A stretch of DNA of 64,000 bases. Origin: Myxococcales bacterium. Its GTDB lineage: Bacteria; Myxococcota; Bradymonadia; UBA7976; UBA1532. Below are positions 2,811-61,280 of the stretch, one piece after another. Every line of letters starts with the position of its first letter. Position 1 is the stretch's first letter. The stretch spans positions 28,501 to 92,500 of the forward strand of contig JACKDM010000007.1 of NCBI GenBank assembly GCA_020633515.1. Direction: 5' to 3'. The notes below the pieces were generated by a model. That model saw nothing but the letters and a program-made list of their open reading frames with translations, did no database searches and was not told where the DNA came from. Made by a program: the position numbers and the translations under genes.

Positions 2811-4367
2811 CTACCGCTCGCCCCACGCCTCCTCGTCGGCGATCCGCAGCGCGTCGAGCATCATCATCGCCGTGTCGAACAGGATCACCGGCGCCTCGGG
2901 CGCGTCGTCGTCGGCCTCGAACGCGAAGTGCCCCTCCGTCCAGCGCAGGATCTCGCCGATCGACTGCACGATCTGCTCGTCGAGCACCGGCCGCAGCGTC
3001 TCCTCGTCGAGCATCCCGCTCTCGATGAGCACCTGCCCGAGCGGCGCCGGCCGCGCGCGCTCCCGCTGGAGCCGGATCGCGTCCTCGACGTCGGCCGCCG
3101 TCAGGTGCCCCGCCCGCACGAGCGCGTCGCCGACCCGCGTCGAGTCCGAGGTCGAGGCGCCGGCGAGCTTGCCCTTGTAGAGCGCCACCTCGCCCATCCG
3201 CCCCTCCCAGATCAGCCGCAGCGTGCCGGTGCGCTGGTTGAGCCGGAGGAACTCGAGCAGGTCGACGACCTTGAACTGCTTGATGTTGCCCGCGAACGCC
3301 GACTCGGTGCGCACGAGCGGCACGTCGAGCGAGCGGTCGAGGTCGGCGTCGTCCGCCTCGTCCACCGCCGCCCGCGCCTTGGTCAGCAGCCGATTGAGCC
3401 CGCGGTCGTCGCCGAAGCGCGCGACCCCGTCCTCGGCCACGTCGACCGCCCGCTCCGCCCGCCCCGTCGCGAGCAGCGCCTGCCCGAGCTGCACGTACAC
3501 CGCCGCGTCCGTCGCCGCCGGCAGCGCCTCGGTCAACAGCGGGATCGCCTCCTCGTACTGCTCGTCCTCGCGCAAGAGCTCCCCGAGCCGCGCTGCCGTC
3601 AGCGGGCTGCGCGCCTTGAGCCGCCGCTGCCGCAGCGTCGCGATCGCCGCCGTCCGATCCCCCGCCCGGATGTGCGCCTCGGCGAGCAGGTCGAGCACCT
3701 CGGCGTCGGGGTGATGGCTCGCCACCGCGCCGAGGGTCGTGATCGCGTCCCGGGTGAAGCCCGCGTCGAAGAGCAGGTGCCCGAGCCGGAAGCCGATGTC
3801 CCGATCGCCCGGCGCCGCCGCCGAGCCCTTGCGCAGCGCCGCGAACGCCTGCGCCGACTCACCCCGCGACAGGTGCAGATCAGCGAGCAACCCCCACGCC
3901 TCGACCTGCTCCGGGTGGTCCTCGACGACCGTCATGAGCTGCTCGCGCGCCTCTTCGTGGCTCTCGAGCGCGATCAACGCCCGCGCCTCGGCGATCCGCA
4001 CCGCCGGATCATCCGGCGCGAGCCACACCGCGGTCGCGAAGAGGTTGGCGGCGTCGTCGGCGTTGCCCTCGGCGAGCAGGCTCTCCCCGAGGCGGAGGTG
4101 GGCGAGCGCCGAGCTGCGGTCGCGCTCGCAGGCCTCGATGTACATCTGGCGGGCGTGCTCGCCGAGGTCGAGCGCGCGGAAGAGGTCGCCGATGCGGATG
4201 AGCTGATCGGCCGTCTCGACGCGGCTCTGTGCCGCCGCCTCGGCCGCGGCGAGCGCCTCGACCCGGTGCCCCTCCGAGAGCCGCGCCTCGGCGAGATCAC
4301 ACCACGCATTGGGGTCGTGCGGCTGGCTCCGGGTGCGTCGCTCGAGTGTGAGAATCCGGTTGATCAT
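2811..4367 (-). CDS. TPR protein with C-terminal DUF4388 domain
   Basis: The protein has about 518 residues. The ATG at 4367 (MINRILTLERR) follows a GGAG site. The first 330 residues are a run of TPR-like helical pairs (for example WCDLAEARLSEGHRVEALAA and DAAVYVQLGQALLATGRAER). The C-terminal 160 residues match the DUF4388/PatA-N type: FKVVDLLEFLRLNQRTGTL, then GEVALYKGKLAGA, VGDALVRAGHLT and QSIGEILRWTEGHFAFE. DUF4388 proteins in deltaproteobacteria are associated with signalling and gliding regulation, but the partner here is unknown. It lies downstream of and co-directional with the ACP, type III PKS and FAAL genes, with a 129-base gap, so it may or may not be part of that unit. Confidence 0.8.
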   Translation of the reverse strand: MINRILTLERRTRSQPHDPNAWCDLAEARLSEGHRVEALAAAEAAAQSRVETADQLIRIGDLFRALDLGEHARQMYIEACERDRSSALAHLRLGESLLAEGNADDAANLFATAVWLAPDDPAVRIAEARALIALESHEEAREQLMTVVEDHPEQVEAWGLLADLHLSRGESAQAFAALRKGSAAAPGDRDIGFRLGHLLFDAGFTRDAITTLGAVASHHPDAEVLDLLAEAHIRAGDRTAAIATLRQRRLKARSPLTAARLGELLREDEQYEEAIPLLTEALPAATDAAVYVQLGQALLATGRAERAVDVAEDGVARFGDDRGLNRLLTKARAAVDEADDADLDRSLDVPLVRTESAFAGNIKQFKVVDLLEFLRLNQRTGTLRLIWEGRMGEVALYKGKLAGASTSDSTRVGDALVRAGHLTAADVEDAIRLQRERARPAPLGQVLIESGMLDEETLRPVLDEQIVQSIGEILRWTEGHFAFEADDDAPEAPVILFDTAMMMLDALRIADEEAWGER

Positions 4368-4496: not shown

Positions 4497-6293
4497 TCAG
4501 CTCGTCGGCGCGAGCACCGCGAGCTTGTCGGCCAGCAGGCGGGTGCGGACCTCGTTGCGGCGCAGCTTGCCGCTCGTGGTCTTGGGCAGGGACTGCGCCT
4601 TGACGGCGACGATGCGGTTGGGGGCGAGCCCGACCTCGCGCTTGATGGCGGCGCTGACCTGCCGGACCATCTGCGCCACCTCGTCGACCGCCTCGCGGCG
4701 CGTCTCGAAGACGACCACCAGGTCTTCGGTGCCGCCGTCCTCGTTGAACACCCCGAACGCCGCCACGCACCCCGCGCGCACGCCCTCGACCTCGGCGGCC
4801 GCCCGCTCGATGCCGTCCGGCTGATAGTTGCGCCCGGCCTTGATGATGAGGTCCTTGCTGCGCCCATAGACATAAAGCCGCCCGTCGGCGACGTAACCGA
4901 GGTCGCCGGTGCGCAGCCACTCCCCATCGAGCAGCTCGGCCGTCGCCTCCGGATCACCGAAGTACCCCGGCGTCACCGACGGCCCCCGGAGCTGGATCTC
5001 ACCCTGCCGCCGCTCCGGCAGCGCCTTGCCCTCTTCGTCGACGATCCGCAGCGTGTGCCCCTCGAACGGCCGCCCCACCGCCACCACCCGCCGCGCCCGC
5101 TCCGTCGTGGGCCCCGGCGGCGCCGCGACCCCTTCGGCCGCGAGCCGGTCGATGTCGATCTCGTCGATCACCGGCCCCTCCCCCGGCGCGGGGAAGGTCG
5201 CGGCGAGCACGCACTCGGCCATGCCGTACACCGGCGACATCGTCGCGGGGTTGAACCCGAGCGGCCCGAACCGCGCCTGGAACGCCTCGACCGTGTCGGC
5301 GTGGATGAACTCCGACCCGTTCTGCGTGCGCCGCCACGAGCTCAGGTCGAGCCCCTCGATGTCGGCGTCGGCCAGCCGATGGGCGCAGATGTGATAGGCG
5401 AAGTTCGGCGCCGCGCTCTGCGTGCCGCGGAAGTAGTGCACCGCCCACAGCCACGCCCGCGGGGTGAAGACGAACGCCATCGGCGGCAACAGCACCGACG
5501 GGATGCCGTGCAGCATCGGCAGGTGCACGCTCGACACCAGCCCCATGTCGTGGAACAGCGGCAGCCAGAACACGGTGATGTCGTTGGTGTTGAGCACCAG
5601 CCCGTCGGTGATGTCGGTGACGTTGGTCAACAGCCCGCCGTGCGTGATCTGCACCGCCTTCTGCCGCGACGTCGTGCCCGAGGTGAACTGGATGTACGCC
5701 AGCTCGTTGGCGTCGGGCTTGATCGGGTCGAACGGCCGCGCGTCGGAGAGCTTGTGCGGCGTCAGCAGCCGGCACCCCTCCCGGCTCGTCACCGGCTCCC
5801 GCGCCGCGAGCGCCACCATGCTGTCGACGAGCACCGCGCGCGCGCCCACCGTGTCGATCGCGTCGCCGAGCTTGCGGCTCCAGATCGGCACGTTGGCCGC
5901 GCCGAGCGGCAGCGACAGCATCACCGGCACCAGCCCCGCCAGCCCGCAGCCATAGAAGGCCGCGACCGTGCGCTGGTTGGTGTCCATGCTGATGATGACC
6001 CGATCGCCCCGCTTACAGCCGGCGTCGACGAAGGTCGCGGCGAACTGCTCGGCGAGCTCGAGCATCTCGCCGTAGGTCACCGAGCGGGTGCGCACATCGG
6101 GCGAGGCGAACCAGAACGCGATGTCGTCCTTCTGCTCGCGCCCCCGGGTCGCGAGCGCCTCGCCGAACGACGAGAAGGAGTGCCGCGCCCGCGGCGGGTC
6201 CTTCGGCAGATCCCGACGGCCCGGATGCACGCCGAGCCCCGGTTGCAGGCACACCTCGTCCGCGGCGGAAACCTTCACAGCCATCCTCCCCAT
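4497..6293 (-). CDS. Fatty acyl-AMP ligase (FAAL-type adenylate-forming enzyme)
   Basis: The protein has about 598 residues. It activates a fatty acid with ATP to acyl-AMP, usually for transfer to a carrier protein. Family motifs are present in order: P-loop YIQFTSGTTSRQKAV (about 200-214), WLPLFHDMGL (243-252), the FAAL-typical APNFAYHIC (295-303) and LDLSSWRRTQNGSE (315-328), YGMAE (356-360), RTGDLGY (461-467), GRSKDLIIKAGRNY (477-490), and the A10 Lys in KTTSGKLRR (571-579). The PNFAY and LDLSSW segments favour FAAL over acyl-CoA ligase. The start is uncertain: ATG codons lie at 6293 and 6284, neither with a well-placed ribosome binding site. It follows the type III PKS gene by 36 bases on the same strand, so the two are probably co-transcribed. 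Confidence 0.88.
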   Translation of the reverse strand: MGRMAVKVSAADEVCLQPGLGVHPGRRDLPKDPPRARHSFSSFGEALATRGREQKDDIAFWFASPDVRTRSVTYGEMLELAEQFAATFVDAGCKRGDRVIISMDTNQRTVAAFYGCGLAGLVPVMLSLPLGAANVPIWSRKLGDAIDTVGARAVLVDSMVALAAREPVTSREGCRLLTPHKLSDARPFDPIKPDANELAYIQFTSGTTSRQKAVQITHGGLLTNVTDITDGLVLNTNDITVFWLPLFHDMGLVSSVHLPMLHGIPSVLLPPMAFVFTPRAWLWAVHYFRGTQSAAPNFAYHICAHRLADADIEGLDLSSWRRTQNGSEFIHADTVEAFQARFGPLGFNPATMSPVYGMAECVLAATFPAPGEGPVIDEIDIDRLAAEGVAAPPGPTTERARRVVAVGRPFEGHTLRIVDEEGKALPERRQGEIQLRGPSVTPGYFGDPEATAELLDGEWLRTGDLGYVADGRLYVYGRSKDLIIKAGRNYQPDGIERAAAEVEGVRAGCVAAFGVFNEDGGTEDLVVVFETRREAVDEVAQMVRQVSAAIKREVGLAPNRIVAVKAQSLPKTTSGKLRRNEVRTRLLADKLAVLAPTS

Positions 6294-6329
6294 CGCTCGG
6301 ACCGGCAAACGATCGACACGGCGCCGACC

Positions 6330-7370
6330 TCAGAACCGGACCAAAAGGCTCTCCATCGTCAGCCCCGGGCCGAAGCCCATCAACACGCCGTAGTCGCCCG
6401 GATCGGGCCGGTCGGTCTTGATGATGTCGTCGAGCACCAGGAGGATCGTCGCCGACGAGCAGTTGCCGACGTTGGCGAGCACCTTGCGGCTCGCGCGGAG
6501 CTGCGCGTCGCTCAGCTTCATCTCGGCGCCGATGAAGTCGACGATCTTGGGCCCGCCGGGGTGGATCCCCCACCAGCGCACGTCGTGCCGGGTGATGCCT
6601 TCTTCGGCGCAGAGCTTGTCGACGAGCGGCCCGACCTTCTCCCCGAGGATGAACGGCACGTACGGCGACAGGGTCATGCGAAACCCGGTGTCGGTCACCG
6701 TCCAGGTCATCATCTCGTTGGTCTCGTAGACCGTCTCGGTGCGGGTCCGCAGGATCACCGGCCCGTCGCCCGGCTCGTCGACCGCGCCGAGCACCAACGT
6801 CGCCGAGGCATCACCGAAGAGCGCGTGGGTGACGACCTGCTCGCGCGTCGCCTCGGGGCGCATGTGCACCGAGCAGACCTCGGTCGCGTTGGCGAGCACC
6901 AGCTCGTCGGGCCGCGCCGCGAGGCTGTCGAGCGAGGTCTTGATCACGTTGAAGCCGGCGTAGCACCCCATGTGACCGATGAAGGTGCGCCGCAGCCCCG
7001 GCGACAGCCCGAACTCCCCGGCGAGCTGCAGCTCGGGGGTCGGCCCCACGTACCCGGTGCACGTCGCCATCACGAAGGAGCCGATCCGCTCCTTGTCGAT
7101 CGTCGCGAACACCCGGTGCAGCAGCTGCCGGTTCATCTCCATCGTCGACTCGGCCCAGATGTCGATCCGCTCGGCCGTCGACGGCATCCGCGCCGCGATC
7201 TCCACCGGATCGCGCGCGAGGTGGCGGCGCTCGACGGTGGTGTTCATGAACAGCGACTCGGCGTCGGGGATGTCGGCGTACCACTTGGAGAAGACCGTCT
7301 CCCACAGCTCTCGCTGGGAATAGGCAACAGGCGGGGTGGTCGTCTCGATCGTCAGGATCCGCGCAGGCAT
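6330..7370 (-). CDS. Type III polyketide synthase (chalcone synthase-like)
   Basis: The protein has 346 residues, normal for this family. The catalytic Cys-His-Asn triad is readable: Cys136 in GHMGCYAGF, His270 in WGIHPGGPKIVD and Asn303 in NVGNCSSATILLVLDD. The C-terminal GFGPGLTMES motif is also present. These enzymes extend an acyl thioester with malonyl units and cyclise the product to pyrones, resorcinols or similar. The ATG at 7370 is preceded by GGAGGAG. The neighbours FAAL and ACP suggest that the starter is a fatty acyl group delivered on the carrier protein; this is inference from context. Confidence 0.9.
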   Translation of the reverse strand: MPARILTIETTTPPVAYSQRELWETVFSKWYADIPDAESLFMNTTVERRHLARDPVEIAARMPSTAERIDIWAESTMEMNRQLLHRVFATIDKERIGSFVMATCTGYVGPTPELQLAGEFGLSPGLRRTFIGHMGCYAGFNVIKTSLDSLAARPDELVLANATEVCSVHMRPEATREQVVTHALFGDASATLVLGAVDEPGDGPVILRTRTETVYETNEMMTWTVTDTGFRMTLSPYVPFILGEKVGPLVDKLCAEEGITRHDVRWWGIHPGGPKIVDFIGAEMKLSDAQLRASRKVLANVGNCSSATILLVLDDIIKTDRPDPGDYGVLMGFGPGLTMESLLVRF

Positions 7371-7400
7371 GTCCTCACTCCTCCAGGCCCAGCGAGAGTA

Positions 7401-7429
7401 AGCCTAACCGTCGCCCATATGCAGGTAAA
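7401..7429 (-). promoter_or_regulatory. Candidate sigma-70-type promoter of the type III PKS gene
   Basis: On the minus strand a TTTACC -35-like hexamer (7429-7424) and a TAGGCT -10-like hexamer (7406-7401) are separated by 17 bases in a locally AT-rich stretch. Transcription would start near 7394, about 24 bases before the ATG. The same TAGGCT hexamer recurs at the feoA and 63455 genes. Confidence 0.45.
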
Positions 7430-7579
7430 TGATCTTTGGGCGGCAGCAGCCGGGCTCGGCGACCGTCGCGCGCCTCGTGATCACCGACCCTCGCGGGGCG
7501 CGTCGTCGGTCTCCGGTGCTCGATATTGGCGAGAGGGGGGCGCCTCGGGCGAGGCGAGCGGCGACGGGCGGCGGCCCGA

Positions 7580-7855
7580 TCAGGCCGCGGCGGCGAGGGG
7601 GCTGCGCTCGGCGATGAAGCGGGCGAGGCTGCCCACGGTGTCGCAGCCGGCGTTCGACGACGAGATGAACCAGGGGGCCAGCTCGATGTGACCGAAGCGG
7701 GCGCGCACGGTGCTGAACAGCGACGAGAGGCTGAGGGAGTCGAGGCCGAGGTGCCCGGTCAACGAGGCGTCGACCGAGATCTCGTCGGCGACCATCTCCG
7801 GGCAGGTGGCCACGATCTCTTCGACCAGGAGCGCTTCGATGTGGTCGGGGGTCAT
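7580..7855 (-). CDS. Acyl carrier protein
   Basis: A 91-residue acidic protein with the phosphopantetheine attachment motif GHLGLDSLSLSSLF; Ser40 is the expected modified residue. It begins MTPDHIEALLVEEI, typical of ACP helix 1. The ATG at 7855 has GAGGAGG six bases upstream. The C-terminal 30 residues (GHIELAPWFISSSNAGCDTV) are less typical but keep the final helix. It is the first gene of the minus-strand set ACP, type III PKS, FAAL, though 209 bases separate it from the PKS gene, which has its own candidate promoter. It is probably the acceptor of the acyl group activated by the FAAL. Confidence 0.88.
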   Translation of the reverse strand: MTPDHIEALLVEEIVATCPEMVADEISVDASLTGHLGLDSLSLSSLFSTVRARFGHIELAPWFISSSNAGCDTVGSLARFIAERSPLAAAA

Positions 7856-8013: not shown

Positions 8014-8547
8014 TCAGGGTGTGACAGGTTGTGCAGGTGGCACATCGAGGCGCGTCCAGCGATCCCAGTAGTTGCCCGTCACCGTCGCGCCGAGCCCGAT
8101 CACCACCAGCGCCGGCCAGACCGGGTCGCTGCCCTGCGCGTCGAGGCAGCGATCGGCGCCGTCCCGCGTCGCGCAGCCCGGGCTCGCGACCATGCCGGTG
8201 ATGCCGGCGACCACCAGCGCGATCCCGGTGACGATCACCACCCGCGGCCACACCGTCTCCGCCGGCGGCGGCGGCGCGAGGCGCGGATCGCTCGCGACCG
8301 CCGGGTCGAAGCGCGTCGGATCGGCGAGCGCGGCCGGCTCGAGCGGAGCGGCCGGAGCGGCCGGAGAAGCCGGAGCGGCCGGATCGATCGGAGCCGTCGG
8401 CGCGCCCGGCTCGACCGATGCCACGGGCGCGTCAAACGCCCCGATCGCACGCAGCGCGTCGCCGAGCGTGCGCGGCGCGGCGCCCGCCGGCGCGGCGAGC
8501 GCGAACGCCAGCGCCAGCGATCCCACGCACCGGCCGGCCCCTCTCAT
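8014..8547 (-). CDS. Small exported protein with two hydrophobic segments, unknown function
   Basis: The protein has 177 residues. It starts with a signal peptide (MRGAGRCVGSLALAFALAAP, cleavage after about AGA), then an Ala/Pro-rich linker (about 45-95) and two hydrophobic stretches, VVIVTGIALVVAGITGMVA and PALVVIGLGATVTGNYW, with a two-Cys loop (CATRDGADRC) between them. The two-helix tail with a short Cys loop resembles the ends of the TPR proteins at 1-653 and 17460-18803. The ATG at 8547 follows GGAGGCGGG. No family was recognised. Confidence 0.65.
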   Translation of the reverse strand: MRGAGRCVGSLALAFALAAPAGAAPRTLGDALRAIGAFDAPVASVEPGAPTAPIDPAAPASPAAPAAPLEPAALADPTRFDPAVASDPRLAPPPPAETVWPRVVIVTGIALVVAGITGMVASPGCATRDGADRCLDAQGSDPVWPALVVIGLGATVTGNYWDRWTRLDVPPAQPVTP

Positions 8548-8620: not shown

Positions 8621-10435
8621 TCATCGCGGCGGCTCCACCCGCCCCGCCGGCGGCACGTCGAGCTTCACCGGCCGCGCCGCGTCGAGCGGCCACGTCCGGT
8701 TGGGGAACCGCGGCTGCACCGCCTCGAGCGCCGCGAGCCGCGCCCGACGCAGCGACTCCGGCTCGATCCGCTTGTCGCCGAGCACCAGCGCGTCGGCGAA
8801 GAAGGCGTAGGCGTGATGCTCCCCCGTGCTCGGCAGCCCCAGCGCCTCCAGCGCCGCCCGGATCCGCGCCGGCTCCAGCATCAACGAGCCCGCGTCGTGC
8901 CCCACCAGCAACAGCGCCCCGCCCGCGTCTTCGAGCGCCTCGGCGACCAGCAGCTCGGTCCGCGCCTGCGCGAGCCCCCGCCGGTAGGCCGCCTCCAGCT
9001 CCGGCAGCCCCCGCCCCGGCGCCGGCTCGATCGGGGTGACGTGCCGCGGGCACTCCAGGGTGTAGTAGACGATGTGGCTGCCGATCTCGACGCCAGCGAG
9101 GGTGCGCTTGTCGACGCCGAGCAGCGCCTGCGGCCGGATCACCTTGCCCACCCGCGCGTCGGCGCCACAGAGCGGGCAGTGTTCGAGGTCGTCGGGGCGC
9201 TCGACGAAGCGGCGGGTCTCGCGGTCGTAGCCGAGCAGCTCCAGCAGCGCCGCGGTGCGCGCCTCACCATGCGCGTCGCCACGGCCGACGAGGTCGAGCA
9301 GCGGCCATCGCCCCACCGGCACGTCGCTCCCCGGCTCGCTCACGACGAGCACCACCCCGCCGTCGATGCGCAGGTCGTAGCCCTCGATCGACTTCTGCGC
9401 GAGCAGCCACCAGTCGTGCGCCTCTTCCAGCGCCTCGACCATCGGCCGGAAGAACGCGCGCGCGCCCTCCACGAAGCTGCGCCCGGTGTGCAGCGTGCGC
9501 AGGTAGGGGTAGGCGAACGCCATCTCCACCCGCAGCGGCCCGAGGTGCAGCGCCACCTTGATGTCGTCCTCGGGGTCGACCCACTCCACCGCGACCCCGT
9601 GGTGCTTGCACTGGTCCTCGATCGCGGCGAGGAACTCGGACGCGTCGGCCAGCACGAACAGGTCGAGCCGCCCCGCCGCGACCGCCGCGCTCGACGGCCC
9701 GAGCCACTCCGGGTACCGCTCGCCGACGAAGGGATACCGCGACGCCTCGGCGCTGCCGAGGAACTCGATCGTGTCGAAGCGCCCCGCGCCCCACTCGGCG
9801 AGCGCGTCGGCGAGCGCCTCGTCCTCCCGCCCGGCCGGATCGGGGTCGCCCGGCACGCCCTGCCGCACCCCGATCACATAGCCGCCCTGCACCTCCGCCA
9901 CCGCCAGCCGCCCGGTCGCCTCGTGGCGCTCGGCGAGCCAGCGCCAGCCGGCGCGCGGATCGAAGAAGGTCCCCGTCTGGTCGCGGAACATGCCCTCGTC
10001 GTCGGGGAGCGCGAGCTTGACCACCTTGCCCCGCCCGTCCATGCGCCACGCGTGCACCGCCGCGCCCGGCCCCGGATCGTCGAAGTCGGCGGCGAACTCG
10101 ACGCTGTAGTCGAAGCCCACCTCGGCCAGATAGCGCGCGTAGAGCCCCGCGACCGGGCGCAGCTCGAGGTCGTCGACCTCGTCGCCGGTGAAGGTCCGCC
10201 GCCCCGCCCACCAGCCGCGAGCGAGGCGCTCGATGAAGGCATCGACCGGACCGGCCGGCGCCGGCCCGTAGAAGGCATCGCGGATGACGACGTGCCGCCC
10301 GGTGCGCCGGCAGACATACAGCACCTGCGCTTGATCGAAGGCGTCGGGCCCATGGCTGCGCACCAGCGCCTTGCGGTCGCGGTGGAAGGTCTCGCGGAAG
10401 CGATCGAGGTGGACGGGCGGGCGAGCGAGCGTCAT
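8621..10435 (-). CDS. Large protein of unknown function with a Cys/His cluster
   Basis: The protein has 604 residues and I do not recognise it. There is no signal peptide or membrane segment, so it is probably cytosolic. Around residues 430-480 a possible zinc site is visible: CPLCGADARVGK, then YYTLECPRHVTP about 40 residues later. The N-terminal part carries DAFDQAQVLYVCRRTGRHVV and many Trp/Arg/Asp-rich stretches. The ATG at 10435 has GGGAG five bases upstream. It is divergent from the gap operon. Its start region matches no toxin, nuclease or ATPase motif I could identify. Confidence 0.7.
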   Translation of the reverse strand: MTLARPPVHLDRFRETFHRDRKALVRSHGPDAFDQAQVLYVCRRTGRHVVIRDAFYGPAPAGPVDAFIERLARGWWAGRRTFTGDEVDDLELRPVAGLYARYLAEVGFDYSVEFAADFDDPGPGAAVHAWRMDGRGKVVKLALPDDEGMFRDQTGTFFDPRAGWRWLAERHEATGRLAVAEVQGGYVIGVRQGVPGDPDPAGREDEALADALAEWGAGRFDTIEFLGSAEASRYPFVGERYPEWLGPSSAAVAAGRLDLFVLADASEFLAAIEDQCKHHGVAVEWVDPEDDIKVALHLGPLRVEMAFAYPYLRTLHTGRSFVEGARAFFRPMVEALEEAHDWWLLAQKSIEGYDLRIDGGVVLVVSEPGSDVPVGRWPLLDLVGRGDAHGEARTAALLELLGYDRETRRFVERPDDLEHCPLCGADARVGKVIRPQALLGVDKRTLAGVEIGSHIVYYTLECPRHVTPIEPAPGRGLPELEAAYRRGLAQARTELLVAEALEDAGGALLLVGHDAGSLMLEPARIRAALEALGLPSTGEHHAYAFFADALVLGDKRIEPESLRRARLAALEAVQPRFPNRTWPLDAARPVKLDVPPAGRVEPPR

Positions 10436-26675: not shown

Positions 26676-28853
<2,178 letters not shown>

Positions 28854-28936
28854 GCGACACCCTCCTGACACGATCCGCTTCCGCTCGTCGGCGACCGTGC
28901 TAAGGTGCGGCGCAGACCAGCGCCAGGAGGGGAGTC

Positions 28937-28968
28937 ATGGCAGCACGTCAGCCGCGGGGTGAGCATCG

Positions 28969-28972
<4 letters not shown>
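28937..28972 (+). CDS. 11-residue leader peptide coupled to the OPT transporter gene
   Basis: A strong ribosome binding site (AGGAGGGGAG) precedes ATG at 28937, which opens the frame MAARQPRGEHR. Its TGA (28970-28972) overlaps the transporter start codon at 28969 (ATGA). Translation of the leader could deliver ribosomes to the transporter start or sense supply of an amino acid; three Arg codons are present. No attenuator hairpin was identified. Confidence 0.45.
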
Positions 28973-30801
<1,829 letters not shown>

Positions 30802-36101: not shown

Positions 36102-40892
<4,791 letters not shown>

Positions 40893-57031: not shown

Positions 57032-57507
57032 CGCCCCACCTCCTCGCCCGCCCCGCCACTGCTCAGGCTCGCCACCACCGAATCGACGATCTTCTGGTAC
57101 CCCGTACACCGACACAGATTGCCCGCCAGCGCCTCCCGGATCTCCACCGCCGACGGCTTCGCGTTCCGCGCCAGCAGCTCCGCCGCCGCCACGATGAACC
57201 CCGGCGTACAGATCCCGCACTGCGCCCCGCCATGCTCCACGAACGCCTGCTGCACCGGATGCAGCACCGCGCCCGCCACCCCCTCCACCGTCTGCACCCG
57301 CGCGCCCCGCACCTGAACCACCGGCACCAGACAGCTATTGACCGCCCGCCCCTCGATCAACACCGTACACGCCCCGCACTCCCCCTCACCGCACCCCTCC
57401 TTGCTCCCCGTCAGCCGCAGCTCCTCCCGCAGCACATCCAGCAACCGCATCATCGGCGGCACATCCACCGCCACCGCGCCCCCGTTCACCTCCATCTCGA
57501 TCTTCAC
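57028..57507 (-). CDS. [2Fe-2S] subunit of a molybdenum hydroxylase
   Basis: The protein has 159 residues. It carries two 2Fe-2S sites: GCGEGECGACTVLIEG with NSC in the plant-type cluster, and QCGICTPGF with CRCTGYQKIV in the second. The GTG at 57507 overlaps the stop of the large subunit (GTGA) with AGGAGG eight bases upstream. It is the small subunit of a CoxS/XdhC-type trimer. Confidence 0.93.
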   Translation of the reverse strand: MKIEMEVNGGAVAVDVPPMMRLLDVLREELRLTGSKEGCGEGECGACTVLIEGRAVNSCLVPVVQVRGARVQTVEGVAGAVLHPVQQAFVEHGGAQCGICTPGFIVAAAELLARNAKPSAVEIREALAGNLCRCTGYQKIVDSVVASLSSGGAGEEVGR

Positions 57508-59738
57508 GCGCACGCCTCCTCGCGCTCGCACAGCGCCGCCAGCACCACCTCGGGCGTCATCGGCAACCGATCCAGCACCGCGCCCGTCGCCGCCTCGATC
57601 GCCTGCGCCACCGCCGGCGCCGGCACGTCATGCGGGATCTCCCCGATCCCCTTCGCCCCGAACGGCCCCCCCGCGAACGGATTCTCCACCAGGATCGTCA
57701 CCATCTCCGGCGCATCCAGCGCCGTCGGGATGATGTAGTTCGTCAGCCGGTTGTTCCGCATCCCCCCCTCGGCGTCGAGCACCACCTCCTCACACGTCGC
57801 GTACCCCAGCCCCTGCAACGCCCCCCCCTCCAGCTGCCCCGCCGCCAGCACCGGATTCAGCGCCCGCCCCACATCCGTCGCCTGCACCAGCCGCCGATAC
57901 AACACCTCGCCCGTGTCCTCATCGACCTCCACGTCCACCACCACGCACGACCACCCATAGGTCGGATACGCATCCCCCTGATACTTCACCGGATCCCACG
58001 CCGCCCCCGCGTCCTCGTACACCGCCCGCACCCGCAACGCCGCCCCGCTCACCCGCTTCGCGCACAACGCATCGAACGACAACGCCTCGCCCCCCGGCCC
58101 CACCTCCGCCCGCAGCGCATCCAGCAGCTTCCCCGCCGCCTTCTTCACCACCCCCCCCACCACCATCGCCGTCCGGCTCGCCACCGTCGGCCCGCTATCC
58201 GGCACATCCGCCGTATCGTGCGGCGCCATCGCCACCCGACTCACGTCGATCCCCAGCGCATCCGCCACGATCGCCAGGAAGATCGTATCCGTCCCCTGCC
58301 CGATGTCCGTGCTCGCCGTGTGGATCAACACCCGATCCCCATCCAGCGAAACATCCGCCTCCCCCCGCAGCGCCGCCTCCCCATTCCCCGTGAACCCGCA
58401 CCCATGCCACGCGATCGCCACCCCCCGCCCCGACCGCCGCCGCGCCGCCGCCTGCCCCCCCCCCGGCCGCACCGGCACGAACGACGCAGAGAGCGGCGCC
58501 TCCGCCGCGGCCAACGCTCGATCCAACACCTCCGCCGCCGCCACCTGCGACAGCACCTGCCCGCTCGGCGTCACCGCCCCATCCCGGTACAGATTCAACC
58601 GCCGCAACGCGATCGGATCGAAGCCCAACGTCCGCGCGATCCGATCCATATGCCGCTCGGCCGCGAACATCACCTGCGGCGCCCCGAACCCCCGAAACGC
58701 CCCATTCGGCGGCGTATGCGTCGCCACCATCCGCGCATCCAACCGCGCGTGCGGCACCACATAAGGCCCCAGCGAATGCAGGATCGCCCGACTCAACACC
58801 ACCGGGCTCAACGTGTTGTACGCCCCCCCATCGAACAGCAGATCCACATCCGCCGCCAACAGCTTGCCCGTCCCCGGATCCACCGCCGTCGCGTACCGCA
58901 TCACCGCCGGATGCCGCTTCGTCGTCGCCCGCAGATCCTCGTCCCGCCGATAGATCAGCTTCACCGGCCGCTTCGTCGCCAGCGCCAGCACCGCCGCGTG
59001 CGCCGCCACCATCGACGGATACTCCTCCTTCCCCCCGAACCCCCCCCCCGTCACCGCCTGCACCACGTTCAGCCGCCCATGCCCCAGCACCCGCTTCAGC
59101 GCCTTGACGATGTAGTACGGACACTGCATCGACCCGAAGATCGTCAGCCCCCCATCCTCCCGCGGCACCGCGATCATCCCTTGCGGCTCGATATAGAGCT
59201 GCTCCTGCAACCCCACCCGATACGTACCCTCGACGATCACCGCCCCCGCCGCCTCCGCCGCCGCCAGCGCATCCAGCCCATCCCCATGCTCCATCGAGAT
59301 CCGATGGAACAGGTTGTCCTCCCCGAAGATCCGGATCGCGTTGCCCTCGCTCTCCTCCGGCGCGAACAACGCCGGCCACGGCTCGCACAGCACCTCGATC
59401 GCCCGCGCCGCCGCCAGCGCCCGATCCCGCGACGGCGCCGCCACCAGCGCCACCGGCTCCGCCACATGGCGAATCACACCCCGCGCCAGCACCGGCTGGT
59501 CATCGGTCATCAACGCCACCACGTTCTCGCCCGGGATGTCATCGGCCGTACAGACCGTCACCCCGCTCCAATCGAAGCCCGGATCCCGCCGCAGCCCCAA
59601 CAGCTTCCCATGCGCGATCGGCGACCGCACCGTCGCCCCGTACAGGCACCCCTCCGGCCGCACGTCATCCACGTACAGCGCCGCCCCCGTCACCTTCGCC
59701 GGCCCGTCGGCGCGAGCGAGCCCCAAGCCGATGTGCAT
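57504..59738 (-). CDS. Molybdopterin-binding subunit of a xanthine dehydrogenase-like enzyme
   Basis: The protein has 744 residues. Motifs of the xanthine dehydrogenase family include VTGGGFGGKEEYP, PPNGAFRGFGAPQ and the catalytic Glu near the end in FGAKGIGEIPHD. The trimeric order and divergent XdhC-like gene support a purine or other heterocycle hydroxylase, but CO dehydrogenase can be ruled out only by substrate-loop comparison: I do not see the AYXCSFR motif of CoxL. The ATG at 59738 has AGGAGG five bases upstream. Confidence 0.9.
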   Translation of the reverse strand: MHIGLGLARADGPAKVTGAALYVDDVRPEGCLYGATVRSPIAHGKLLGLRRDPGFDWSGVTVCTADDIPGENVVALMTDDQPVLARGVIRHVAEPVALVAAPSRDRALAAARAIEVLCEPWPALFAPEESEGNAIRIFGEDNLFHRISMEHGDGLDALAAAEAAGAVIVEGTYRVGLQEQLYIEPQGMIAVPREDGGLTIFGSMQCPYYIVKALKRVLGHGRLNVVQAVTGGGFGGKEEYPSMVAAHAAVLALATKRPVKLIYRRDEDLRATTKRHPAVMRYATAVDPGTGKLLAADVDLLFDGGAYNTLSPVVLSRAILHSLGPYVVPHARLDARMVATHTPPNGAFRGFGAPQVMFAAERHMDRIARTLGFDPIALRRLNLYRDGAVTPSGQVLSQVAAAEVLDRALAAAEAPLSASFVPVRPGGGQAAARRRSGRGVAIAWHGCGFTGNGEAALRGEADVSLDGDRVLIHTASTDIGQGTDTIFLAIVADALGIDVSRVAMAPHDTADVPDSGPTVASRTAMVVGGVVKKAAGKLLDALRAEVGPGGEALSFDALCAKRVSGAALRVRAVYEDAGAAWDPVKYQGDAYPTYGWSCVVVDVEVDEDTGEVLYRRLVQATDVGRALNPVLAAGQLEGGALQGLGYATCEEVVLDAEGGMRNNRLTNYIIPTALDAPEMVTILVENPFAGGPFGAKGIGEIPHDVPAPAVAQAIEAATGAVLDRLPMTPEVVLAALCEREEACA

Positions 59739-59807
59739 CCCTGGCCTCCTCGCAATCATCCGCGCACCATACTCCACCACATCCTCGAACGGCGACCCCC
59801 AGCCGCG

Positions 59808-59813
59808 TACACT
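59808..59813 (+). promoter_or_regulatory. TACACT -10 element seven bases before the start codon of 59821
   Basis: TACACT lies seven bases before GTG at 59821 with no ribosome binding site between them, so a leaderless transcript is likely. The -35 hexamer is weak (TCGAAC at 59785-59790). Confidence 0.4.
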
Positions 59814-59820
59814 CCGCCCC

Positions 59821-60453
59821 GTGAAACGCTACCTCTACCTCGTCATCGCCCTGAAGCTCGCGCTCCTCGCCCTCTTCGGCCTCGTCACCCTCCTCGGCGT
59901 CCCCCTCCTCACCGACCCCGCCCCCTACATGCCGGCCGCCACCCTCCCCGTCGCCGCCCTCGGCGTCGCGCTCCTCATCGCCGACGTCCTCATCCCCGTC
60001 CCCTCCAGCCTCGTCATGGTCGCCCACGGCGCCCTCTTCGGCACCCTCGGCGGCACCCTCCTCTCCCTCGCCGGCAGCATCGGCGCCGCCGCCCTCGGCT
60101 TCTGGATCGGCCGCAAAGGCGGCCCCCTCCTCGACCGCATCATGACCCCCGAAGAACGCACCCGCGGCGACCGCCTCCTCGCCCGCCACGGCGGCCTCGC
60201 CATCGTCCTCAGCCGCCCCCTCCCCATCCTCGCCGAGACCACCGCCATCCTCGCCGGCACCAGCCCGCTCCCCTGGCCCCGCCTCCTCATCGCCGCCACC
60301 CTCGGCGCCCTCCCCCCCGCGCTCCTCTACGCCATCGCCGGCGCCGCCGCGACCGGCTTCGACGACCAGCTCCTCATCTTCGCCGCCGTCATGGGCGCCG
60401 CCGCCCTCTTCTGGCTCATCACCCACCGCCTCGAAGCCCGGCTCGCCCCATGA
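59821..60453 (+). CDS. VTT/DedA-like membrane protein
   Basis: The protein has 210 residues. It has five or six hydrophobic segments and a VTT-like centre (ALLIADVLIPVPSSLVMVAH, then AALGFWIGRKGG and LSRPLPILAETTAILAGTS). VTT/DedA proteins are scramblases or flippases of phospholipids and undecaprenyl phosphate. The stop overlaps the xdhC-like start by ATGA. Confidence 0.85.
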   Translation: MKRYLYLVIALKLALLALFGLVTLLGVPLLTDPAPYMPAATLPVAALGVALLIADVLIPVPSSLVMVAHGALFGTLGGTLLSLAGSIGAAALGFWIGRKGGPLLDRIMTPEERTRGDRLLARHGGLAIVLSRPLPILAETTAILAGTSPLPWPRLLIAATLGALPPALLYAIAGAAATGFDDQLLIFAAVMGAAALFWLITHRLEARLAP

Positions 60454-61280
60454 CCCGCTTCTTCGCCCACCTCGCCACCTACGAAGCCACCGGCACCCCC
60501 TTCGTCCTCGCCACCGTCATCGAGACCGGCGGCAGCACCCCCCGCGACGCCGGCGCCCGAATGGCCATCACCCACCGCGACTTCGCCGGCACCATCGGCG
60601 GCGGCGCCTTCGAAAAACACGTCATCGACGAAGCCCGCGCCCTCCTCGCCGACCCCGGGCGCGAAGTCCACCGCCTCGACGTGCACCTCGTGCGCGATCT
60701 CGGCATGTGCTGCGGAGGCCGAATGAGCGTGCTCCTCGAGACCATCGACCCCGCCCCCCCGCTCCGCATCTACGGCGCCGGCCACGTCGGCACCGCCCTC
60801 GCCGAAGCCGCCCGCCTCGCCGGCTTCGCCGTCACCATCATCGACGCCCGCGCCGAATGGTCCGACCCCGCCCGCTTCCACCCCGACATCACCGTCATCG
60901 ACGCCGAACCCGAAGACCACCTCCGCCACCACCCCCCCGGCTCCGCCGACTACGTCGTCGTCGTCACCCACGACCACCCCCTCGACGAAGCCCTCGTCCG
61001 CGCCATGCTACCCGCCCCCCCCGGCTACCTCGGCCTCATCGGCAGCCGCGGCAAATGGGCCCGCTTCCAGAACCGCTACCGCGCCCGCGGCTTCGACGAC
61101 ACCCAGCTCGCCCGCGTCCGCTGCCCCGTCGGCCTCGACATCGGCGCCCGCACCCCCCCCGAGATCGCCATCAGCATCGTCGCCGAGCTCATCGCCGCCC
61201 GCCGCGGCGGCCCCCGCTGGCAGAAACCCCCTCGCCCGGCGGCCGGGGAGGGGACCTCAACCGAACCTGAGCAGCGGTGA
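60450..61280 (+). CDS. XdhC/CoxI-family maturation factor
   Basis: The protein has 276 residues. The N-terminal part (ATVIETGGSTPRDAGARMAI, then LGMCCGGRMSVLLE) and the Rossmann-type LRIYGAGHVGTALAEAARLAG fit XdhC, which inserts sulfurated molybdenum cofactor into the hydroxylase encoded on the other strand. The C-terminal 15 residues are low-complexity and end EPEQR inside an inverted repeat. Confidence 0.9.
   Translation: MTRFFAHLATYEATGTPFVLATVIETGGSTPRDAGARMAITHRDFAGTIGGGAFEKHVIDEARALLADPGREVHRLDVHLVRDLGMCCGGRMSVLLETIDPAPPLRIYGAGHVGTALAEAARLAGFAVTIIDARAEWSDPARFHPDITVIDAEPEDHLRHHPPGSADYVVVVTHDHPLDEALVRAMLPAPPGYLGLIGSRGKWARFQNRYRARGFDDTQLARVRCPVGLDIGARTPPEIAISIVAELIAARRGGPRWQKPPRPAAGEGTSTEPEQR

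Follow-up and report, generated by a model that had tools for sequence, protein, structure and literature searches.

A fatty acyl-AMP ligase, acyl carrier protein and type III polyketide synthase cassette in Myxococcota, predicted to build ringed lipids

A row of genes encoding a stand-alone acyl carrier protein (ACP), a type III polyketide synthase (PKS) and a fatty acyl-AMP ligase (FAAL) was identified in a 64,000-nucleotide stretch, hereafter the window, of a Myxococcales bacterium (GenBank assembly GCA_020633515.1, contig JACKDM010000007.1, positions 28,501 to 92,500). The three genes are best read as a starter-unit cassette, in which the FAAL and ACP would feed the PKS to give an alkylresorcinol, an alkylresorcylic acid or an alkylpyrone, and we put the probability of this at about 0.72. 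A first-pass annotation of the same DNA had proposed the route from a fatty acid through FAAL and ACP to a type III PKS and a pyrone or resorcinol; gene families, co-occurrence and precedents make it the best-supported reading, but the cassette does not represent a new kind of system. In Myxococcus xanthus, a FAAL and the type III PKS FtpA are reported to make alkylresorcylic acid (Hayashi et al. 2011, as related in PMC10896814 and PMC8460268), and genes resembling a Myxococcus locus assigned below to that system (L272) are called ftp-type. Type III PKSs are described as long thought to be limited to CoA-activated starters (PMC8086630). A PKS accompanied in distant bacteria by its own enzyme and carrier for acyl loading, apart from the M. 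xanthus system, would be an independent case for acyl-ACP recognition by this enzyme class, and the cassette would offer a compact three-gene route from a free fatty acid to a ringed lipid.

Identity of the cassette genes

The ACP, PKS and FAAL genes, followed by a gene for a TPR-DUF4388 protein, form one row on the minus strand, with open reading frames (ORFs) at all of the coordinates given here. The ACP gene (7580..7855, 91 aa) is separated by 209 bp from the PKS gene (6330..7370, 346 aa), which lies 21-51 bp ahead of the FAAL gene (4497..6308; 603 aa from a TTG at 6308, or 593 aa from a GTG at 6278). The TPR-DUF4388 gene (2811..4367, 518 aa, its ORF open from 4469) encodes a protein with PF14559 and PF14332 matches. 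That a FAAL, a lone ACP and a type III PKS adjoin on one strand, as the first-pass annotation had it, was borne out by the ORFs, protein families, active-site residues, PDB matches and a predicted fold.

The PKS matched PF02797 with 94.9 bits and PF00195 with 52.9 bits (cut-off 27), and its triad C136-H270-N303 was the same in all 22 sequences of an alignment that included the window PKS. An AlphaFold2 model built from an alignment of 22 sequences reached a pLDDT of 90.2 and a pTM of 0.91. Its top Foldseek match was 7d41, a type III PKS of Mycobacterium marinum (TM-score 0.93 by query length, E 5.3e-33), with CylI, Pks11 and Pks18 also among the best structural matches; the same three were among the nearest bacterial structures when a PDB sequence search was considered together with Foldseek. 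By its domains, triad and predicted fold, the gene product is a type III PKS. In a quickly built tree of 62 chosen rows, which covered part of the comparison loci described below and carried SH-aLRT support only, 29-30 window-type rows (support 98-99) and 15 ftp-type rows (support 100) formed separate clades.

The ligase matched PF00501 with 205 bits. Its best PDB match was 3pbk, an Escherichia coli protein named Fatty Acyl-Adenylate Ligase (284 bits), aligned as one stretch, and by sequence this colinear alignment spans the FAAL-specific insertion region. Scores of 180-199 bits were obtained against 5d6j, 5icr and 7wua, named acyl-CoA synthases in the PDB, which we take to be FadD32-type FAALs. 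CoA ligases outside the FAAL group reached at most 106 bits, many of them broken into two stretches. As judged from these alignments, the ligase is nearer to FAALs than to acyl-CoA ligases. The ACP phosphopantetheine pocket of EcFAAL includes T83, P107 and T252, on which the transfer of the acyl group to holo-ACP is reported to depend (PMC8460268). With a numbering offset of one assumed in the 3pbk alignment, T83 and P107 correspond to T110 and P134 of the window FAAL, and T252 corresponds to P276.

The ACP matched PF00550 with 27.7 bits (cut-off 20.8) and carries the DSL phosphopantetheine serine within a GLDSL motif that was invariant across six aligned ACP sequences. Only five homologues were found in a large protein set at E 0.001, and for three of them the longest contig is as long as that of a close PKS homologue (pairs P0122/P0002, P0123/P0001 and P0124/P0009). 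Orphan paralogues of this ACP, 61% identical to the cassette ACP of locus L123, were found at L126 and L127 in the relatives G215 and G060, respectively. In the alignment, window-type ACPs share an additional stretch that surrounds a conserved Trp (mostly PWF, PWY or DWF) and is missing from three ftp-type ACPs. By this Trp-containing stretch, the window ACP is a member of a distinct ACP subfamily.

Conservation of the gene neighbourhood

Comparison loci were picked by PKS identity to the window (about 44% or more, over most of the length), and one of the homologous-locus collections comprised the best 80 of a longer list. The resulting 34 distinct loci cover the window, other Myxococcota, Microvirga, Mycobacterium metagenome-assembled genomes and other Actinobacteria; they derive from 35 rows, in which L009 equals L131, with the partial L019 (45%) excluded and L003 and L006 repeating L124 and L125. 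Genes were called with a codon-usage ORF caller trained on window genes, or from a plain ORF list in L124, and their starts are approximate. A same-strand FAAL was present within 7 kb in 27 of the 34 loci, an ACP was detected nearby by profile in 25 (and additionally by motif in L011), and the tight order ACP-PKS-FAAL was found in 20, from Myxococcota and Microvirga. Because a FAAL accompanies the PKS in 27 of 34 loci and the tight trio order recurs in 20, the neighbourhood goes beyond chance. Conserved co-occurrence in relatives, which the first-pass annotation had named as one of the checks on its proposal, was thus present. Apart from G001, G060 and G215, 100 further Myxococcota type III PKS places were inspected, many of them on short contigs, and 31 had a FAAL within 7 kb, one of which was on the opposite strand.

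Within the Myxococcaceae, a window-type PKS was found in 14 of 96 genomes at 20 places, and at 14 of these places the genes run ACP-PKS-FAAL along a single strand. Neighbours within 9 kb of 13 Myxococcaceae trio loci included an O-methyltransferase (10 loci) and a UbiA prenyltransferase (8 loci), and an FAD monooxygenase was present in L243. UbiA and O-methyltransferase genes likewise neighbour the trio in L125, and FAD monooxygenase and methyltransferase genes do so in L124. An ftp-type PKS was found at E 1e-80 in 76 of the 96 genomes, and 10 of the 13 genomes with an intact trio carry one on the same contig, 6-29 kb away. In four Myxococcaceae genomes (L248-L251), the window-type and ftp-type cassettes are about 6 kb apart on opposite strands, and in the genome of L251 the ftp-type cassette is reduced to PKS-ACP-FAAL (L277). 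A preprint explains the alkylpyrone clusters of Archangium by gene duplication (PMC12224551). Since the window-type and ftp-type PKSs share 31% identity, what it describes may at least in part consist of two old paralogous systems side by side.

A type III PKS was detected at E 1e-40 or better in at least 94 of 377 drawn Myxococcota genomes, a count that may be low, as at most five candidates were scored per genome. Among these, G060 (locus L122) and G215 (locus L123) alone carry a close window-type PKS, with 79-80% identity. Both have the same gene row as the window, consisting of a kinase, SecG, TPI, PGK, GAPDH (the last four named by eye from sequence), a 604-aa gene, a small gene, ACP, PKS, FAAL and TPR-DUF4388, and the genes diverge beyond it. 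Across the 13 genomes of the relatives' family, a window-type PKS was found at E 1e-60 in two; the type III PKSs of G248 and G158 are more remote from it. Cassette-free versions of the row occur in G167, G110 and G248, which keep the glycolysis genes together with the 604-aa and small genes and continue with other genes. A close orthologue of the TPR-DUF4388 protein (64-65% identity) was found only in the two cassette-bearing relatives (2 of 13 genomes), with weaker matches in three others; in L122 the beginning of its gene and the end of the FAAL gene share 4 bp. The ACP, PKS, FAAL and TPR-DUF4388 genes seem to have been gained or lost together in this family, as judged from three cassette genomes in a set where some genomes may be incomplete.

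Predicted route, known systems and alternatives

FAALs are reported to transfer fatty acids to holo-ACP, and such transfer has been seen in vitro for an M. xanthus FAAL-ACP pair that is not stated to be the ftp one (PMC8460268). Acyl-ACP is described as accepted by the type III PKSs GCS, ArsB/ArsC and CylI (PMC6274091, PMC8086630). In the route proposed here, the FAAL would adenylate a free, probably long-chain fatty acid and pass the acyl group to the phosphopantetheine arm of its dedicated ACP. The PKS would take the acyl chain from acyl-ACP onto Cys136, add malonyl (perhaps also methylmalonyl) units from CoA and cyclise the product to an alkylresorcinol, alkylresorcylic acid or alkylpyrone. 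We infer the serial action of the three proteins, the acyl transfer with the ACP as donor, the chain length and the ring type or product class from gene families, co-occurrence and these precedents. The neighbours of the cassette are the TPR-DUF4388 gene, the small gene and the 604-aa gene without a Pfam match, and no tailoring gene was recognised beside it in a scan that took in part of the window's genes. Because none was recognised alongside, the primary PKS product may be the final lipid; alternatively, it may be finished by genes elsewhere. The TPR-DUF4388 protein would be a lineage-specific accessory with a regulatory or scaffold role.

The first-pass annotation knew of no described system with these three genes, which is contradicted both by M. 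xanthus and by cylindrocyclophane biosynthesis. C18:0 and in-vitro data are listed in a review table for alkylresorcylic acid in M. xanthus, and a set of stilbene synthase, methyltransferase, AMP-dependent synthetase and monooxygenase genes is described from this species (PMC5006271). The Myxococcus locus L272, with a PKS that shares 99% identity with a Myxococcus-named protein (P0126), has the order PKS, ICMT methyltransferase, ACP, FAAL and FAD monooxygenase, so that an ACP lies between PKS and FAAL. We infer that L272 is the ftp locus because its genus and gene content match that set. The window shares with it a FAAL, a type III PKS and a stand-alone ACP in a short block, and hence the same predicted logic. 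In contrast, the window order is ACP-PKS-FAAL-TPR with no methyltransferase or monooxygenase recognised alongside, the PKSs belong to separate clades, the ftp-type ACPs lack the inserted stretch, and identities to L272 are 31% for the PKS, 38% for the FAAL and 33% for the ACP. In the cylindrocyclophane pathway, the FAAL CylA is reported to load a fatty acid on the free-standing ACP CylB, and the type III PKS CylI to make the resorcinol ring (PMC11837247, PMC8086630). The enzyme set is like that of the window, and CylI is among the top structural matches of the window PKS. However, that pathway also relies on type I PKSs, which lengthen the chain after the ACP and before CylI, and on CylC/CylK for halogenation and dimerisation; no genes of these kinds were recognised beside the window genes.

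The myxobacterial alkylpyrone-407/393 cluster (BGC0001831), reportedly that of Hug et al. in 2019, resembles the window in its type III PKS. It is conserved in Myxococcia and appears in a review's list of FAAL-containing clusters. Compared by distribution rather than by sequence, it agrees more closely with the ftp type, found in 76 of 96 Myxococcaceae genomes, than with the window type, found in 14. In alkylresorcinol synthesis by Azotobacter ArsABCD, type III PKSs can receive their acyl chain from an ACP, as proposed for the window, but the reported donor is the ACP domain of the fatty acid synthase ArsA (PMC6274091), whereas the window would use a FAAL with a free ACP. No description of the window-type PKS clade or ACP subfamily was recognised in the open literature, which is weak evidence, as subscription papers lie mostly outside it. 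What is probably new relative to the ftp and cyl systems is the PKS clade, the gene order, the ACP subfamily, the lack of a recognised adjoining tailoring gene and the likely sigma-54-like control, the logic itself being already known.

Several observations weigh against the starter-unit reading. The 209-bp gap between ACP and PKS in the window compares with one of about 265-350 bp in its counterparts L122 and L123; with a gap this wide, a single operon is uncertain. Seven of the 34 PKS loci have no FAAL inside 7 kb (one of them, G003, near a contig end), which means that the PKS can exist without a FAAL, and in the actinobacterial loci L001, L002, L004 and L005 the genes are spaced 3-6 kb apart amid other genes. 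Pairwise distances of ACP, PKS and FAAL correlate (Mantel r 0.77-0.89, 17 triplets, p 0.0001), which counts in favour of the reading, but plain joint inheritance gives this result equally, and alone it is no sign of co-adaptation. In NCBIfam, the FAAL scored highest against a model named long-chain-fatty-acid--CoA ligase (433 bits) and next against a FAAL model (410.5 bits), both short of their cut-offs. The ACP score is not far over the Pfam cut-off, and the L126 paralogue falls below it. The PKS residue Trp223 aligns with Pks11 W230 and with Pks18 L266, the latter described as lining the acyl tunnel of Pks18, and the aligned residue has been linked to resorcinol formation; Trp223 is present in 151 of 204 aligned PKS rows (some loci repeated). 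It is too common among PKS rows to decide between resorcinol and pyrone, and was ruled out as proof of a resorcinol product.

Two other explanations of the cassette's chemistry were considered. The PKS might use acyl-CoA, with FAAL and ACP forming a separate acyl-ACP salvage pathway that is its neighbour by history. Most type III PKSs use acyl-CoA, and both the FAAL-free loci and the ACP-PKS spacing would fit, but the trio is kept in Myxococcaceae, the window's lineage, a Myxococcota metagenome-assembled genome and Microvirga, and a FAAL is reported to be coupled with a type III PKS in M. xanthus; we regard this explanation as unlikely. Less probable still is a starter other than a simple long-chain acid (short, branched, aryl or hydroxy), or a ring product that is not a lipid, for instance a DpgA- or PhlD-like phenol. 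This would suit the bulky Trp at the Pks18 L266 position and the best NCBIfam model of the PKS, DpgA, which scored 175.9 bits against a cut-off of 425. Yet DpgA is also the best model for the Myxococcus ftp-type PKS, with 179.7 bits, a ranking that may reflect how few type III models there are, and the nearest bacterial structures include Pks18, Pks11 and CylI. A DpgA function was ruled out, given the score far under the cut-off and the similar score of the ftp-type enzyme.

Compatible with the starter-unit cassette, and adding to it, is a tentative role of the TPR-DUF4388 protein as an integral part that senses a signal, possibly cyclic di-GMP (c-di-GMP) through an MshE-type motif, and gates the cassette. 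The restriction of its close orthologue to the two cassette-bearing relatives and the start inside the FAAL stop in L122 speak for it, and the c-di-GMP_motif model gave 40.3 and 40.7 bits against a cut-off of 38. Against this, the motif was not listed at E 1e-7 for the orthologues of L122 and L123, yet it was listed for two other DUF4388 proteins without a cassette link (L311 and L302), and c-di-GMP binding was dropped as a conserved trait. Around the trios of Myxococcaceae, L124 and Microvirga, no TPR-DUF4388 match above the limits used was found. The suggestion of the first-pass annotation that this gene could regulate the cassette is possible and agrees with the distribution among relatives, but at these limits no counterpart came up near the cassette in other lineages.

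Promoter-like site and other genes of the window

A sigma-54-like site (TGGCACGATTCGCGCA, 7923-7908, minus strand), of the form TGGCACG-N6-GCA with GG-N10-GC spacing, lies 52 bp before the ACP start; of the 12 consensus letters it matches 10. Sites of this kind also precede the ACP in L122 and L123 and the orphan ACP in L126 and L127, so that 5 of 5 regions of the lineage score at least 10/12, and at this threshold one was found in none of 11 trio loci outside the window's lineage. The window as a whole holds three sites of at least 10/12 among about 128,000 positions on both strands. Frequency alone was rejected as an argument, since the exact pattern occurs at two sites against 0.64 expected, and 17 of 100 shuffles gave two or more; only the conserved position was used because frequency was not significant. 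It also counts against the site that the five occurrences are related by descent rather than independent cases, and that the TT ahead of GC in the -12 element is missing in the window. Given the conserved position, transcription of the ACP gene in this lineage probably starts at a sigma-54 promoter, and the site suggests on-demand production of the lipids in a Myxococcota family that has been little studied. A promoter of the PKS gene's own, noticed by eye only, was not kept, as an upstream alignment did not settle it.

The orphan ACPs of L126 and L127 lie near a LolA-like/DUF1329 protein gene, in L126 together with an MMPL transporter and a P450, and LolA-like and MMPL genes occur near the ACP of the L124 trio. 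A link of the cassette to lipid export may exist and is treated as a lead only. A wider picture, possible but doubtful as a whole, would be that of a second, deep and as yet undescribed FAAL-ACP-type III PKS family with its own ACP subfamily, present in Myxococcota and Microvirga and more loosely in Actinobacteria. In the window's lineage it would be a minimal three-enzyme line without recognised adjoining tailoring genes, read by sigma-54 like the orphan ACP near LolA-like/MMPL genes and possibly gated by TPR-DUF4388, and would amount to a regulated envelope-lipid system.

Upstream of the ACP gene, the cassette is flanked on the minus strand by a small protein gene (8014..8526, 170-177 aa) without a Pfam match, which is also found in cassette-free relatives, and by the 604-aa protein gene (8621..10435) without a Pfam or NCBIfam match. 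The 604-aa gene was found in all 13 genomes of the relatives' family and adjoins the GAPDH block in L122, L123 and L302-L304, but not in L305-L307. In the cassette-free relatives (L302-L307), a 369-402-aa gene weakly like the window's TPR-DUF4388 gene adjoins it, with PF14332 confirmed in L302 and L303; at the spot next to the 604-aa gene in the window, L122 and L123, no TPR-DUF4388-like gene is present.

A plasmid origin was considered and rejected, as a distant plasmid search gave partial matches only, the largest covering 13% of the query. On the plus strand at 737-2795, the coding signal of a Ser/Thr kinase gene seems to switch frame near 2330, as by a frameshift or an assembly error. Elsewhere in the window, a FeoB gene is followed by an OPT-family transporter gene (26676-30801), and a molybdenum hydroxylase subunit is encoded with an XdhC-like protein (57504-61280). 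A class II B12-dependent ribonucleotide reductase of 1596 aa (36102-40892, minus strand) carries an intein (Intein_splicing and LAGLIDADG_3) inside its barrel domain.

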